Below, piece after piece: positions 6,415 through 33,587 of a DNA stretch of 64,000 bases (the first letter of the stretch is position 1; the number at the start of each line of letters is the position of its first letter). Location of the stretch: assembly GCA_016220085.1 (NCBI GenBank), contig JACRIN010000084.1:1-64000 (forward strand), given 5' to 3'. The notes under the pieces are model-generated. The model was not told where the DNA came from. It did not search any database and saw nothing but the letters and a program-made list of their open reading frames with translations. The position numbers and the translations under genes are program-made. Source of the DNA: Planctomycetota bacterium. Lineage in GTDB: Bacteria > Planctomycetota > UBA1135 > GCA-002686595.

Positions 6415-8851
6415 ACGTCTTCGAATCCGGGTCGGGTTCCGCGCGCGACGCGAGTTCGCGCCGCTTCTCCGCGGTCCAGCGCTCCAAGGACTGTGCGAGC
6501 GCCTCCGGATCCACCGGCTTGGAGATGTAGTCGTCCATGCCGGACTTCAGGCACACCTCGCGATCGCCTTGCATCGCGTTCGCCGTCATCGCGATGACCG
6601 GCATGTGGCCGCCGCGTTGGCTCTCCTGCTCGCGCAAGCGCCACGTCGCCTCGAAACCGTCGAGTTCCGGCATCTGGCAGTCCATCAGCACGACGTGGAA
6701 CTCGCCGCGCTCGAGCGCCTCGAGCGCCTCGCGGCCGTTGTTCGCGACCTCGCAGCGGTAGCCGAGCTTCTTCAAGAGCCTGACCGCGACCTTCTGGTTC
6801 ACGATGGTGTCTTCGGCGACCAACACGCGGATGCGATCGCGCTCGGTCATCAAGTCGAGCTTCTCGCGCGTCAAGAGCCCGGTCTTCGCCAGGACTTCGT
6901 GCGGCCTGCCGGTGCCCATCAGCACGGCGATGCAGTCGAAGAGCTGCGATTGCTTGACCGGCTTCGCGAGGCATGCCGAGAAGCCCGCGCTCTTCAGCTT
7001 CGACGCTTCGGCGACGCCCCAGATCGACGACAGGAGCACCAACGGCACTCCGCCGACGTCGGGATCCGCGGTGATCTCGCGCGCGACCATCTCGCCGTCC
7101 ATGTCGGGCATCTGGTAGTCGAGCAGCACGAGGTCGAACGGCCGGCGCTCGTGCTTGCCGTTCTTCAGCACGTCGAGCGCCTTCGGGCCGTAGTCGACCT
7201 CTTCGCTGGTCGCGCCCCACGCGGCGAGCTGCTCGCGCAGGATGCGTCGATTGGTCGCATTGTCGTCGACGATCAGCACGCGCAGTCGGCCGAAGCGACG
7301 CGGGAGCGGCGCCTCGATCGCGTGCACGTTGCGTTGCTTGGTCAACGACAGCGTGAACTCGAACTGCGAGCCCTTGCCGACTTCGCTCTCCGCGATCAGC
7401 CGACCGTGCATGAGCTCGACGAGCTGGCGCGAAATCGCGAGCCCGAGCCCGGTGCCGCCGTACTTGCGCGTGGTCGACGAATCGACTTGCGAGAACGACT
7501 GGAACAGCCTGTGCATGCGATCGGCTGGGATGCCGATGCCGGTGTCCTTGACGACGAAGCGCACGTTCGCGACATCGGGTGTCTGCGACTCGAGCGAGAC
7601 TTCGAGCAGCACCTCGCCGCGCTCCGTGAACTTGACCGCGTTCGACAGCAGGTTGAGCACGATCTGACGCAGCCGTCCGGGGTCGCCCTTCAGCAGCGCA
7701 GGCACGTTCGCGTGCACGATGCACGCCATCTCCAGGTGCTTTTCGGAGACGCGGTGCGCGAGCAGGTCGACCGAGTCCTCGACCATCGCGCGGAGATCGA
7801 AGTCGACGCACTCGATCTCGAGCTTGCCGGCCTCGATCTTCGAGAAGTCGAGGATGTCGTTGATGATCGTCAGCAAGCCTTCCGCCGAGTTCATCACGGT
7901 CTCCGCGAGCTCGCGTTGCTCGTGATTCAGACCGGAGTCGAGCAGGAGCCCGGTCATCCCGATCACGCCGTTCATCGGCGTGCGGATCTCGTGGCTCATG
8001 TTCGCGAGGAACTGCGACTTCGCGACCGCGGCTTGCTTCGCGGCCTCCATCGACACCAGCAACTGGCTGTTGAGCTCGCGTAGCTCGGCGGTGCGCCTGT
8101 CGACTTCCTCCTCGAGGTGTCCGCGGTGGAGCTCGAGCTCGCGATCGCGGGCCTGGATCTGCCCGAGCATGCCGTTGAACGCCGTGACGACCTCGCCGAC
8201 CTCGTCGTCGTCGTGTTTCACAGCGCGCGTCGAGTAGTCACCGTCGAGCGTGATGCGCTTGGCTGTGTCCGCGAGTTCGAGCAGCGGACGCGAGATCACG
8301 TTCTGCAGTCGATTCGCGAGCAAGTACGTGACGAGCAGCGCAATCGAGAGCACGACCACGAGGATCATCCCGTAGCTCGCGAGCCGGTCGGAGAGCCCGC
8401 CGAGGTCCGACTCGAGGTAGACGGTGCCGATGCGCTTGCCGTCGACGATCACCTCGTGGAAGAGTCGCAGCGAGTTCGAGCCGAACGCGTACCCCGTCGG
8501 CGCGGCGGCCTCCGGCAGCGTCGCGTCGAACAAGGGGTCGCCGCGCATCCAGTCGGTGAACTGCTCGCCCTCCGCGTTGAAGATGCGCGCGGCTTGGAGC
8601 TGCGGCTTGGCTTCCAAGCGTTCCAACACGTCGTTCGGGAAGTCGCGGTCGTCGAAATCGAGCGCGGATCGCACGTTGACGCCGACCATGTCGGCCGTGA
8701 CGTCGAGATCCCGCACCAGCGCCGATTTCGCCTGCGTGTAGTCGTACGCGGCGAGCATCGCCGTAGCGAGGATGAGGCCGACCGCACCGGTCAGCATCAT
8801 CATCCGCGTCAGCTTCGTGCGGATCGAGTCGGTGCGTCGAGCGACGCTCAC
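6413..8851 (-). CDS. BarA-like hybrid sensor histidine kinase with two receiver domains
   Basis: 812 residues. TM1 is about 18-37 and TM2 about 158-180, with a periplasmic sensor between them (CHASE8-like in size). A HAMP segment follows (about 180-235), then HisKA with phospho-acceptor His287 in [10 protein letters not shown] and HATPase_c with the N, G1 (DTGIGI) and G2 (GGTGLGL) boxes to about 505. Receiver 1 has DD at 529-530 and Asp578 in LLDYQMP; receiver 2 has Asp724 in LMDCQMP and the conserved KP. There is no Hpt domain, so the signal must leave through another protein. It overlaps the upstream YfiR-like gene by 4 bp (ATGA). YfiR proteins are periplasmic regulators that act on a membrane partner, so the pair probably forms a sensory unit with YfiR binding the periplasmic loop (inference). 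Confidence 0.92.
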
Positions 8852-26559: not shown

Positions 26560-26565
26560 TATACT
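26560..26565 (+). promoter_or_regulatory. -10 box before the PduS-like gene
   Basis: TATACT, 44 nt before the ATG, in the context CTATACTTCCGCC, close to the CTATACTACCGGC before speA. No convincing -35. It suggests that the PduS-like/PduT-like pair has its own promoter. Confidence 0.45.
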
Positions 26566-26609
26566 TCCGCCCCCTCGCGACGGGCTCGACGCTCGCCGCG
26601 CGGAACACG

Positions 26610-27914
26610 ATGCTGCTCGAACGATTGCGCGAGAACGGAGTGGTCGGCGCCGGCGGCGCCGGTTTCCCGGCGTACAAGAAGCTCGAGCGCGCCGTCGACA
26701 CCGTGATCATGAACGCGGCCGAGTGCGAGCCCTTGCTCCACAAGGACAAGGAGCTGCTGCGCCGGTTCATGGCGCCGATCCTCGACGGCATGCAGCTCGC
26801 GATGCGTCAAGTCGGCGCGCTCCGCGGCATCGTCGGGATCAAGAACAAGTACAAGGACCTGATCCACGAGCTCGAGCTCGCCTGCGCGCCGCGCGGCCTC
26901 GAAGTGCACGCGCTCGGCGACTTCTATCCCGCGGGCGACGAGTTCATCACCGTCTACGAGACGACGAAGCGCGTCATCCCGCCTGGTGGCTTGCCCGGCG
27001 ACGTCGGGTGCCTCGTGACCAACGTCGAGACGCTCCTCAACGTCGCGCTCGATCGGCCGGTGACGCACAAGTACTTGACGATCGCGGGCGACGTGAAGGA
27101 GCCCGTCACCGTCTGCGCGCCGGTCGGCGCGAGCTTCGGCGACGTGCTGCGCGCGGCGGGCGTCGCGCCGGAGAGCGTCGCGCACGTGCTCGTCGGCGGC
27201 GTGATGATGGGCAAGCTCTCGCGCGGCATGGACGAAGTCGTCACGCGCACGACCGGCGGACTCCTGTGCTTCCCCGCGGAGCACATCCTGCCGCGCCGCT
27301 ATCTCGCCGACGCGCCCGCGCGCGACAAGATCGGCAAGTCGGCGTGCGATCAATGCTCGTTCTGCACCGAGATGTGCCCGCGTTACTTGATCGGGCATCC
27401 GGTCGAGCCGCACATCGCGATGCGGGGGCTCGGCTTCAACATGGTCGGCGAGTCGCTGATCCTCGGCAGCCAGTTCTGCTGCGAGTGCAACCTCTGCTCG
27501 CTCTACGCGTGTCCGGAAGACCTCTTCCCGAAGGACGCGTGCGCGGACAACAAGGTGACGATGCGCGCGAAGAAGCTGCAGCATCCGGACACCGGCAAGA
27601 AGGACGTGCGGCCGCACAGCATGCAGGAGTACCGGCACGTGCCGTTGTCGAGCTTGATCAAGAAGCTCGGGCTCTCCGCGTATCGCAACGTCGGCCCGTT
27701 GGTCGACATCGCGTGGGACCTCGACGAGGTCCGCATCCCGCTCAAGCAGCACGTCGGCGCCCCCGCGGTCGCGTGCGTGCAGGTCGGTCAGCGCGTCGAG
27801 GTCGGTCAGCCGATCGGCCGCGCGCCCGAGGGACTCGGCGTCGCCGTGCACGCGTCGATGCGCGGTTTCGTCGCGAGCGTCGGCGAGAGCATCGTGATCC
27901 GTCGGAACGACTGA
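26610..27914 (+). CDS. pduS: PduS/RnfC-like flavin and 4Fe-4S reductase
   Basis: 434 residues. The amino part is an RnfC/NuoF-type flavin-binding fold: GVVGAGGAGFPAYKKL (10-25), NAAECEPLL (35-43) and CLVTNVETLLNVA (134-146). Two 4Fe-4S cluster motifs follow: Cys246/249/252/256 in CDQCSFCTEMCP and Cys290/293/296/301 in CCECNLCSLYACP. A C-terminal barrel-sandwich domain (VQVGQRVEVGQPIG) ends the protein. This is the order seen in PduS, the cobalamin reductase of propanediol-utilisation microcompartments, and the next real gene is the shell protein PduT, its known neighbour and partner. It should transfer electrons from NADH through flavin to Fe-S clusters. No diol dehydratase, aldehyde dehydrogenase or other shell gene is nearby, so the electron acceptor is open. 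Confidence 0.85.
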   Translation: MLLERLRENGVVGAGGAGFPAYKKLERAVDTVIMNAAECEPLLHKDKELLRRFMAPILDGMQLAMRQVGALRGIVGIKNKYKDLIHELELACAPRGLEVHALGDFYPAGDEFITVYETTKRVIPPGGLPGDVGCLVTNVETLLNVALDRPVTHKYLTIAGDVKEPVTVCAPVGASFGDVLRAAGVAPESVAHVLVGGVMMGKLSRGMDEVVTRTTGGLLCFPAEHILPRRYLADAPARDKIGKSACDQCSFCTEMCPRYLIGHPVEPHIAMRGLGFNMVGESLILGSQFCCECNLCSLYACPEDLFPKDACADNKVTMRAKKLQHPDTGKKDVRPHSMQEYRHVPLSSLIKKLGLSAYRNVGPLVDIAWDLDEVRIPLKQHVGAPAVACVQVGQRVEVGQPIGRAPEGLGVAVHASMRGFVASVGESIVIRRND

Positions 27915-27961
27915 AGGCCCAACGGCAAGCGCCCGTGCGACGCGACGAGCCCCGGAAGGCG

Positions 27962-28030
27962 ATGAACAACGCGATGAACGACGCCACGAACAGCGCGACG
28001 TACAGCGCGATGAGATCGGAGATGCGATGA
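27962..28030 (+). CDS. 22-codon repetitive mini-ORF coupled to pduT
   Basis: ATG at 27962, stop TGA 28028-28030 overlapping the pduT ATG. The peptide MNNAMNDATNSATYSAMRSE-MR is five four-residue units (MNNA, MNDA, TNSA, TYSA, MRSE). A GGAAGG lies close before the ATG. The GGAG used by pduT is inside it, so ribosomes translating it would end at the pduT start. It could be a leader/coupling ORF, or chance in a repetitive spacer. Confidence 0.3.
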   Translation: MNNAMNDATNSATYSAMRSEMR

Positions 28031-28587
28031 AACGGATGGAAGCACTCGGAATGCTCGAGCTCTCGTCGATCGCGGTCGCCTACCGCGTCGAGGACGCGAT
28101 GCTCAAGGCGTCCGAGGTCGACTTGCTCGTCGCGCGCACGATCTGCTCGGGCAAGTACATCGTGATGGTCGGCGGCCAGGTCGCCGCGGTCGAAGCGAGC
28201 GTGCGCGCGGGCCGCGACATCTCGCAGGAAGCGCTGATCGACGAGCTGATCATCCCGAACATCGACCAGCGCGTCTTCCCGGCGATCACTGGCGGCGTTT
28301 CGCTCGAGGAGAGCGACAAGGACGCGCTCGGCGTGCTCGAGGCCTTCTCGGTGACCGCGATCATCGAGGGCGCCGACGCGGCGGTGAAGGCGGCCTCCGT
28401 CAAGCTCTTCCGCATCCACGTCGCGATGGCGATCGGCGGCAAGGGCTTCCTGATGCTGACCGGCGCGGTCGGCGACGTCGAAGCCGCGATCGAAGCGGGG
28501 GCGAGGAAGATCGCCGAGCGCGGGCTCCTGGTCGCGAAGGTCGTGATCCCACGTCCCGACGACCGCATCTACCGCGACATCATCTGA
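28027..28587 (+). CDS. pduT: PduT-like tandem BMC-domain shell protein with Fe-S pore cysteine
   Basis: 186 residues with two BMC domains: domain 1 about 5-90 (ALGMLELSSIAVAYRVEDAM, VGGQVAAVEA) and domain 2 about 97-180 (ALGVLEAFSVTAIIEGADAA, TGAVGDVEAA). Such proteins form pseudo-hexameric trimers in microcompartment facets. Cys40, in RTICSGKYIVMVGG, falls where PduT has its pore cysteine (KTICPGKF) that holds a 4Fe-4S cluster on the three-fold axis. The end RPDDRIYRDII also matches the PduT tail. With the PduS-like gene just upstream, this suggests electron passage through a shell. GGAG lies five bases before the ATG. No other BMC protein occurs in the window. Confidence 0.9.
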   Translation: MKRMEALGMLELSSIAVAYRVEDAMLKASEVDLLVARTICSGKYIVMVGGQVAAVEASVRAGRDISQEALIDELIIPNIDQRVFPAITGGVSLEESDKDALGVLEAFSVTAIIEGADAAVKAASVKLFRIHVAMAIGGKGFLMLTGAVGDVEAAIEAGARKIAERGLLVAKVVIPRPDDRIYRDII

Positions 28588-30729: not shown

Positions 30730-31950
30730 CTACGGCATGTTGAAGTTCAGCAGGTAGTAGACGACGTGCGGCGCGCCGATGAACGTCGTCGGCGCGGTCG
30801 CCGAGAGGTTGGCGCTGCCCATGTCCTCGAACTGACGGCCGAGCTGGACGCCGCTGAACTCGAACGCCGGGAAGCCGCCGATCGTCTCCGCGCCCTCGAA
30901 CCACTCGGAGCTCTGCACGCCGGAGCATCCGTCGGTGTAGTCGAGGTAGCCGAAGTCGAAGAGCAGCGTCTGCATGCCCGGATACACGTTCGGGTTGGTC
31001 CAGCTGCCGAGGCGCTTCTGGTTCAAGTTGCCGATCGGGCTCGGGCTGACCTTGGTGTTGCAGATGCCACCCGCTTGCACGAACGACATGTTGTACTGAC
31101 CGTTGCCGGCCGAGCTGCATTGGCAGAAGTCGGCGATCGGCGCGAACATGCCTTGCGCGGGCTCCTCGAAGTTGCAGATCATCGGCGCGTTCGACCAGTC
31201 GTTGCGGCGCACGGCGCCTTGTTGGATCGGGCCGTTGCTGATCAGCGGGTTGACCGCAGAGACCACGAAGCCCGCGCCCGGCCCGATGAAGTTGAACGAG
31301 CGCGTCGGGTGGTAGCCGGTCGCCGGCGCCGGACGCGCGGTGCCCGGGGCGTGGTGGACGCCGTCGCACTCGTGGTCGAGCATCCACGCGACTTGCCACG
31401 TGTTGGCGATGCAGTCGTACGCGTAGTCGATGTAGCCGGTGAAGTAGACGCCTTGAGTGATCGGCTGACAGGCCGGACGGTACGTCGGGTTGTTCGGCAG
31501 GTTGATCGTCGGGACCATGTCGCCGTTGACGATGAAGCGCCACACCGTCAGGTTCACCGCGCCGGCGACCGACGAAGCTTGCCAGTTGCGCGAGTAAGTC
31601 GCGTTGAGGTTGCCGTTCCAGAGCGTCAGGTTCAGACCGCACTGACGCACGCGCACCTTGATGTCGTAGTTCCCGCACAGGAACGCGCCGCCGAACTGCT
31701 TCGGCGTCGGCGCGCCGATGCCCGCGCAGAGCGAGAGGTTCGCGATCGGTTTGCACTTGTCGAAGCAGACGAAGCGCACCGTCTGGAGGTTCATCGGCGG
31801 AAACGCCGGCAACGTCGGGAACGTCGACACGCAGCACGGGCCGGCGTCGAGCCCGTCGGGCAGACACTGCGCGCGAGCGGGGGAAGCGAGGAACGCTAGA
31901 GCCGCGAGCCACAGGCACGCGAGAGCACGGATCGAGGGACGGGGACGCAT
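30730..31950 (-). CDS. Cys-rich secreted protein, copy 1 of a tandem pair
   Basis: 406 residues, signal peptide 1-27 (cleavage at ARAQ). The mature protein has about 18 Cys and many Asn, Pro and Trp. Blocks shared with copy 2 (32364-33587) run through the whole length: GPCCVSTFPTLP, PTPKQF, RQCGLN, PACQPITQ, HECDGVHH, ARPAPATGYHPTR, GPGAGFVVSA, NPLISNGP, SWTNPNV, LLFDFGYLDY and the end IGAPHVV. No known domain was recognised. The His/Asp-rich HECDGVHH could bind a metal. AGGAG seven bases before the ATG fixes the start. It is expected outside the cell or in the periplasm with disulfides. Confidence 0.75.
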   Translation of the reverse strand: MRPRPSIRALACLWLAALAFLASPARAQCLPDGLDAGPCCVSTFPTLPAFPPMNLQTVRFVCFDKCKPIANLSLCAGIGAPTPKQFGGAFLCGNYDIKVRVRQCGLNLTLWNGNLNATYSRNWQASSVAGAVNLTVWRFIVNGDMVPTINLPNNPTYRPACQPITQGVYFTGYIDYAYDCIANTWQVAWMLDHECDGVHHAPGTARPAPATGYHPTRSFNFIGPGAGFVVSAVNPLISNGPIQQGAVRRNDWSNAPMICNFEEPAQGMFAPIADFCQCSSAGNGQYNMSFVQAGGICNTKVSPSPIGNLNQKRLGSWTNPNVYPGMQTLLFDFGYLDYTDGCSGVQSSEWFEGAETIGGFPAFEFSGVQLGRQFEDMGSANLSATAPTTFIGAPHVVYYLLNFNMP

Positions 31951-32310
31951 CGTTATCTCCTGACTTGGGGACGGGAAGACGGTTGGACGACCGCCAAGTG
32001 ATGCGGGAGCGGGCGGGTGGACAAGTTCTCGCGAATCCACGGGGCGCGGGCCGATCGGCCGGCGTGCGAGTCCGGTCGCGGTCGAGCACCGTGCGATGGA
32101 GGCGGCGAAGTCGCCCGCCGGGGGCTATGCATGCTCGCGGGGAGGCGCCACGGCGCCGACTTCGACCCGTCCGTCGGTCCGCGGCCGCTCCGAGAGCGAT
32201 CGGGCGCGTTCCGACGGCGGATCGACCCACACGCCACCTTCAAGCCGCGTTGCGCGGGTGCCTCGGCGAACGGTTGCCCGCGCTCGGTCGCGGCAGGTCT
32301 TGAAACGACG
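31951..32310. other. leader region between the tandem Cys-rich genes
   Basis: About 360 bp upstream of copy 1. Apart from the hairpin at its upstream end (next entry) I see no gene and no clear promoter. The sequence is less biased than neighbouring coding DNA. Confidence 0.45.
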
Positions 32311-32343
32311 ACTCCTTCCGACGCGCGCTGCGTCGGAAGGAGT
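32311..32343 (-). terminator. perfect 14-bp hairpin after Cys-rich copy 2
   Basis: ACTCCTTCCGACGC at 32311-32324, a 5-nt loop, and its exact complement at 32330-32343, 20 nt after the stop of copy 2. On the minus strand the stem is followed by CGTCGTTTCA, a weak T-run. A Rho-independent terminator separating the two paralogues is the simplest reading. Confidence 0.65.
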
Positions 32344-32363
32344 CGAACTTGCGCTAGGCGAAG

Positions 32364-33587
32364 CTACGGCAGGTTGAAATTGAGGACGTAATCGACGACA
32401 TGCGGCGCGCCGATCAAGGGCGCCGGCGAGCTCGGCGATTTGTTGCAGCTCATCACGTCCTCGAACTGGCGCCCGAACGGAACGCCCGTGAAGTCGACCG
32501 CGGGGAAGCCACCGATGGTTTCGACGCCCTCGAACCATTCGGAGCTCAACGCGCCGTTGCATCCGTCGAAGTAGTCGAGGTAGCCGAAGTCGAAGAGCAG
32601 CGTCTCGACTCCCGGGAAGACGTTCGGGTTGGTCCAGGTGCCGATGCGCTTCTGGTTGAAGTTGCTTAGCGGGCTCGGCGAGACCTGCGAGCCGCACGCA
32701 GCGCCGGCGAACAGCGTTCCCATGTTGTACTGACCGGCCGCCGTGGTGGTGCACATGCAGGTGTCGAACATCGGCGACAGGCTGCCTCCGACGAGCGGTT
32801 CCTCGAACGTGCAGACCATCGGCGCCGCCGCCCAGTCGTTGTGGCGCACCGCGCCTTGCATCACCGGTCCGTTGCTGATCAGCGGATTGCTCGCCGACAC
32901 CACGAAGCCCGCGCCCGGCCCGATCAGGGTGTACGAGCGCGTGGGGTGGTAACCGGTCGCGGGCGCCGGACGAGCGGAACCCGGCACGTGGTGCACGCCG
33001 TCGCACTCGTGGGTGAGCATCCACGCGACTCGCCACGTGTTGGTGTTGCAGTCGAGCGCGTAGTCGATGTAGCCGCTGAAGTAGACCTGCTGCGTGATCG
33101 GTTGGCAGGCGGGCCGGAAGTTCTGGTTGTTCGGCACGTTGCCCGTCGGCGTGAGGTCGCCGTTGACGACGAAACGCCAGACGGTCAGCGCGTTGCCCGC
33201 CGAGGTCACTTCCTCCCAGTTGCGCGAGTAGTCGCCGTTGAGCGTGCCGTTCCAGAGCCCGAAGTTCAGCCCACACTGGCGGATGCGGATCGGGATGTCG
33301 AACTGGCCGCACAGCAGCGCGCCCTGGAACTGCTTCGGCGTCGGCGGGAAGATCCGCGCGCACATCGACACGTTCGCGGCCGGCGCGCAGTTGTTGAAGC
33401 TGACCCAGCGCACGCCGAGGCCCGGCATGTTCGGGAACTGCGGCAAGGTCGGGAACGTGGGGGCACAGCACGGACCTAGATCGAGGCCGTCGGAGACGCA
33501 AACCTGCGCCTCGGCGGGCGCGACGAAGAGCGCGGTGGCGCTAAGCCAAACAGCGCATAAAGCGCGGATCGGAGATTGGAGTCGCAT
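32364..33587 (-). CDS. Cys-rich secreted protein, copy 2 of a tandem pair
   Basis: 407 residues, signal peptide 1-27 (cleavage at AEAQ), homologous end to end to copy 1 at 30730-31950; both start MRxxxxIRAL and both stop in a LNFNxP tail. The Cys positions are largely kept, as is HECDGVHH. The most variable part is the segment after TFEEP/NFEEP (about 280-320). The two genes are separated by a terminator-like hairpin and a 360-bp leader, so they can be regulated separately. Function unknown; presumably extracellular. Confidence 0.75.
   Translation of the reverse strand: MRLQSPIRALCAVWLSATALFVAPAEAQVCVSDGLDLGPCCAPTFPTLPQFPNMPGLGVRWVSFNNCAPAANVSMCARIFPPTPKQFQGALLCGQFDIPIRIRQCGLNFGLWNGTLNGDYSRNWEEVTSAGNALTVWRFVVNGDLTPTGNVPNNQNFRPACQPITQQVYFSGYIDYALDCNTNTWRVAWMLTHECDGVHHVPGSARPAPATGYHPTRSYTLIGPGAGFVVSASNPLISNGPVMQGAVRHNDWAAAPMVCTFEEPLVGGSLSPMFDTCMCTTTAAGQYNMGTLFAGAACGSQVSPSPLSNFNQKRIGTWTNPNVFPGVETLLFDFGYLDYFDGCNGALSSEWFEGVETIGGFPAVDFTGVPFGRQFEDVMSCNKSPSSPAPLIGAPHVVDYVLNFNLP

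Follow-up and report, generated by a model that had tools for sequence, protein, structure and literature searches.

A pduS–pduT gene pair in a planctomycete draft genome as a probable satellite of a microcompartment shell encoded on other contigs

The pduS–pduT pair and its surroundings

The window analyzed here corresponds to positions 1-64,000 of contig JACRIN010000084.1 (hereafter C57; 97,373 bases), which belongs to a 5.55-Mb draft genome that is 86% complete. Two adjacent genes resembling pduS and pduT are found in it, together with the following features:

26560-26565, + strand: TATACT, a -10-like promoter element of the pair, kept in relatives
26610-27914, + strand: predicted PduS-like NADH/FMN/2x[4Fe-4S] flavoprotein, 434 aa (Pfam domains, eight invariant Cys)
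27959-28013, + strand: 12-bp tandem repeat, 4.6 copies, between pduS and pduT (Tandem Repeats Finder)
28027-28587, + strand: PduT-like tandem BMC-domain shell protein of the trimer-forming class, 186 aa, two PF00936 domains (PDB 3pac/3nwg/3n79)
28144-28146, + strand: codon of the pore Cys40, a predicted [4Fe-4S] ligand, aligned to Cys38 of PduT

The original prediction had read these open reading frames as a PduS-like and a PduT-like protein, an assignment borne out by their Pfam domains, the cluster cysteines and the pore cysteine. In the first frame, three of the four domains of the PduS set exceeded their cut-offs (Complex1_51K, E 7.7e-41; Fer4_17, E 3.9e-11; RnfC_N, E 1.5e-13), and the remaining one, SLBB, gave a weak match (E 0.0016) that was under the cut-off but correctly placed. 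All eight cysteines of its two tetracysteine motifs were invariant in an alignment of 25 sequences, and the nearest solved structures were RnfC subunits. Elsewhere among the relatives, the pduS frame is interrupted by a stop at L072 3310-4602 and split into two pieces at L078 296-1578; each of these could be a pseudogene or an assembly error.

The second frame encodes two BMC domains (PF00936, E 2.8e-41). Its AlphaFold model (pLDDT 92) superimposed on PduT-type structures with TM scores of 0.85-0.92, including 0.92 for 3nwg and 0.86 for 3pac, which is described as 'PduT ... with 4Fe-4S cluster binding site'. Because the protein scored 104.8 bits against the NCBIfam eut_PduT model, far below the equivalog cut-off of 250.3, we refer to it as PduT-like and not as PduT. 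An ungapped alignment placed Cys40 at position 38 of PduT, the residue replaced in the C38S mutant of PDB 3n79, which agrees with the earlier claim that the pore cysteine is kept; binding of a [4Fe-4S] cluster by this residue is predicted. Cys40 was invariant in a 30-sequence alignment and was present in 8/8 pairs from the family. A second PduT copy, lacking about 33 N-terminal residues and with no adjoining PduS, was noticed in isolate SJ533 (L132 10001-10459).

The TATACT element lies 50 bases upstream of the pduS ATG; the + strand of the window has this hexamer nowhere else. It was identified by comparing the upstream DNA of relatives and not by a motif scan: 11 of 14 family loci carry TATACT 39-50 bases upstream of pduS, within surrounding DNA that is mostly different. 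Strict sigma-70 and terminator scans at the pair did not reveal a full promoter. The proposal that the pair has its own promoter-like box is thus upheld as regards the conserved hexamer, and not as regards a complete sigma-70 promoter. The repeat between the two genes is shorter in the sibling genome G002, and in most other family loci there is nearly no gap at this point.

As previously proposed from the window, the pair stands alone: no further BMC-H/T or BMC-P gene was found on the whole 97,373-base contig. It is flanked upstream by a gene for an MgtC/DUF4010 membrane protein and downstream by one for a sulfatase-like protein. A comparison of neighbors, which had been suggested as a check, found these flanking genes again within the genus only. 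Downstream, on the - strand (30730-33587), the window also encodes two tandem paralogous secreted proteins of 436 and 407 aa, and similar secreted proteins occur near the pair in the congeners G001 and G002.

Shell genes on other contigs

A search of the whole genome with the PF00936 and PF03319 profiles, in line with the suggestion to look for BMC-H and BMC-P genes, detected two further places with shell genes, on contigs C91 and C18:

C91 (locus L007), gene order: BMC-H, AldDH, BMC-H, CcmP-like trimer, BMC-P, BMC-P, PduT-like trimer, followed by a 100-aa protein and an ACT-domain protein
C91, L007 9246-11084: acylating AldDH, 612 aa
C91, L007 11488-12138: CcmP-like trimer, 216 aa (NF053796, E 4.9e-66)
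C18 (locus L019): BMC-P triplet, then a class II aldolase

The aldehyde dehydrogenase (AldDH) on C91 matched the acylating family TIGR02518 with 518 bits, which falls short of the equivalog cut-off, and its nearest class is the CoA-acylating, NAD-dependent one. An alcohol dehydrogenase was not observed in this main locus. The class II aldolase on C18 resembles fuculose-phosphate-type aldolases, and no hydroxyacid dehydrogenase was seen beside the shell genes there. The PduL family was not found in this 86% complete genome with searches whose controls matched.

With a BMC-T gene alone on C57 and BMC-H and BMC-P genes on C91, the arrangement is that of a satellite locus, and shell genes at three genomic places with a BMC-P triplet on C18 correspond in layout to the FRAG type. 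The case named beforehand as counting against the prediction, another locus that is complete and includes a PduS/PduT of its own, does not apply, since the PduT-like trimer on C91 has a His in its pore and is not accompanied by PduS. No PduS was found at C91 or C18, and the three other PF01512 matches of the genome lie on C5, C19 and C36. Across the family, the pore residue of the main-locus trimers is His, Gln or Ser, versus Cys in 8/8 satellite trimers.

The order H-AldDH-H-CcmP-P-P-T is kept in six relatives that carry the pair, some of them cut by contig ends, and also in the congener G003, where the pair was not found. Two congeners have assemblies that contain both the pair, with proteins 93-98% identical, and this main locus; we therefore discarded a binning artefact as the source of the arrangement. 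The TATACT box was sought at the main locus and is absent from it. A TACACT box following GATTGCG is instead located upstream of the main BMC locus (L007, about position 8800) and in its nearest relatives (L168, L167 and L174).

Occurrence of the pair in other genomes

Within the family, the pair was present in 8 of 37 genomes, but a BMC-domain match was obtained in 36 of the 37, which indicates that the organelle can do without the pair. From the phylum, 294 genomes were sampled evenly, and 29 tandem trimers were fetched from them. Nine had Cys in the pore, and all nine adjoined PduS; the other 20 had Ser, Thr or Gln, and none of these adjoined PduS (0/20). Mapped onto a tree, the Cys label has to change twice, which is not enough to test for repeated co-gain.

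For a wider view, a search across 84,980 species gave 368 relatives, and the loci of 80 were fetched. According to the record titles, they come from Planctomycetota, Ignavibacteria/Melioribacter, Omnitrophota, Acidobacteriia/Bryobacterales, Wallbacteria, Riflebacteria, Lindowbacteria, Sumerlaeaceae, Abditibacteriales, Chloroflexi, Desulfocapsa and others. PduS was directly upstream in 73 of the 80. Among the 36 loci with 5 kb or more of sequence on each side, 35 had no other shell gene within that range. All 80 loci have the Cys, in part because it is contained in one of the two patterns used for the search (RTICSGKY); the link between Cys and PduS was therefore assessed in the samples from the family and the phylum. 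PduS and PduT distances were correlated (Mantel r 0.925, a value reached in none of 999 permutations). BMC-P was detected in 49 of 50 further genomes with the pair, compared with a base rate of 94/294 that was taken in the phylum of the window only, most of the genomes being drafts.

Proposed role of the pair and alternatives

Experiments on PDU proteins, reviewed in PMC6325248, indicate that PduS binds FMN and two clusters, oxidizes NADH and interacts with PduT, in which a [4Fe-4S] cluster is held by three cysteines of the pore; the same review records the PduS/PduT pair in B12-free loci. The window shares with the PDU systems of Salmonella and Citrobacter the adjacency of both families, the domain order of PduS and an equivalent position of the pore Cys. 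It differs from them in that there is no many-gene operon, PduL was not found, and no B12-dependent dehydratase was detected (a large-subunit search in which no control matched). Adjacent PduS/PduT in B12-free microcompartments are also known from GRM1b and GRM5 (PMC6325248), but there the pair is in the main locus, whereas here it is detached and the genome lacks a PFL-like enzyme.

Axen 2014 (PMC4207490) and Sutter 2021 (PMC8217296) describe satellite loci as well as FRAG microcompartments that include BMC-P triplets, and these resemble the present case in having shell genes spread over several places, a BMC-P triplet, and hosts that include Planctomycetes and Ignavibacteria; unlike here, PduS is unnamed in the main text of Sutter 2021. 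As in ACI and PVM, the BMC-P triplet on C18 is accompanied by a class II aldolase, and as in ACI the AldDH is at a separate place, so that triplet, aldolase and separate AldDH are all present. The hydroxyacid dehydrogenase of ACI was not seen beside the C18 genes. C91 departs from both types in also having two BMC-P, a CcmP-like trimer and a PduT-like trimer, and for PVM the aldolase is matched but PduL is missing. A recurrent cross-phylum pduS–pduT satellite is not described in the main texts of PMC4207490, PMC8217296 or PMC6325248, supplements aside. As far as these texts go, the parts and the satellite/FRAG concept are already known, and the recurrence of the pair across phyla is the new part.

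From gene content and co-occurrence, we conclude that the pair is very probably a satellite of a microcompartment shell encoded on other contigs, and it is likely that it transfers electrons across this shell. Because the AldDH is nearest to the acylating, NAD-dependent class and an alcohol dehydrogenase was not seen alongside it in the main locus, NADH would accumulate in the lumen. The main-locus trimer, with its His/Gln pore, has no cluster ligand, so the satellite would add a redox tile under its own promoter. In the mechanism that we propose, the class II aldolase would form an aldehyde from a sugar phosphate, and the AldDH would oxidize it inside the shell, producing NADH. PduS, docked at the lumen side of the PduT trimer, would pass electrons from NADH through FMN to its two clusters, and from there they could move to a pore [4Fe-4S] cluster held by three Cys40 and on to a cytosolic acceptor, leaving NAD+ regenerated in the lumen. 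An outward flow that regenerates NAD+ is the direction we lean towards, with both direction and partner being deduced. For the whole explanation, a redox satellite that exports electrons from a shell whose components and enzymes are encoded on other contigs, we estimate a probability of roughly 0.6.

Electrons might also run inward, PduS/PduT carrying cytosolic reducing power to the lumen for aldehyde reduction or cofactor protection, for example. PduS is an NADH-linked flavoprotein, a pore cluster is neutral as to direction, and PMC6325248 treats the role of PduS/PduT outside PDU as open; however, the sole luminal redox enzyme seen, the acylating AldDH, makes NADH, and a luminal acceptor was not found, so we regard this direction as unlikely. 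Homology to PduS would also fit a PDU-like corrin reductase serving a B12-dependent dehydratase. This is decidedly improbable, given that the shell genes on C18 adjoin a class II aldolase, an enzyme that does not require B12; the diol/glycerol dehydratase large subunit was detected in 0 of 58 pair-carrying genomes, a weak result in that no control genome matched the model. A supply of electrons for activating a glycyl radical enzyme in the shell, as proposed for GRM loci (PMC6325248), would suit the 11 of 58 pair-carrying genomes with PFL-like genes, but such a gene is absent from the genome of the window, from seven pair-carrying family members and from 39 more, in searches whose controls matched, and we give this role hardly any credence.

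The stand-alone electron conduit that the original prediction offered as the other possibility to a distant shell locus, operating with no microcompartment at all, draws on the isolated location and on two drafts, G330 (L173) and G082, in which the pair is present and BMC-P was not found, through either incompleteness or a real stand-alone pair. The BMC-P count in pair-carrying genomes and the full shell set on C91 and C18 speak for the distant shell and make the conduit very improbable. At least as remote is a decaying remnant of an earlier PDU-like locus: the patchy occurrence in the family and the N-terminally truncated copy in L132 could be seen in this way, but divergent loci have retained the pore Cys, all eight Cys of PduS and the promoter box, and the satellite PduT is conserved at least as well as the main-locus trimer.

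The satellite reading may tentatively be extended to an optional electron-export cassette, inherited as a unit with its own promoter in many phyla, which would fit a redox tile into microcompartments of differing chemistry that possess a non-redox PduT paralogue already. If so, NAD+ recycling through the shell wall would be a detachable function, tied to no one pathway. The passage of electrons across shells and the role of PduS/PduT without B12 are regarded as open questions in the field (PMC6325248), and the family provides a natural with/without comparison, as the pair is present in some members and absent in close relatives that share the main organelle. In addition, His/Gln-pore and Cys-pore paralogues in one genome constitute a built-in control, and a two-gene module apart from all pathway genes might serve other shells as an electron wire.

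Two traits of the main locus were also observed. The CcmP-like protein, of the beta-carboxysome type, is found here within a catabolic microcompartment locus. The acylating AldDH (L007, L167, L168, L169, L172 and L174) contains a long linker of low complexity and, at its C-terminus, a Cys-rich tail that is strongly conserved (CPLGPCKGCGHQ...TGAC); this tail may be an encapsulation peptide carrying a metal or Fe-S site.
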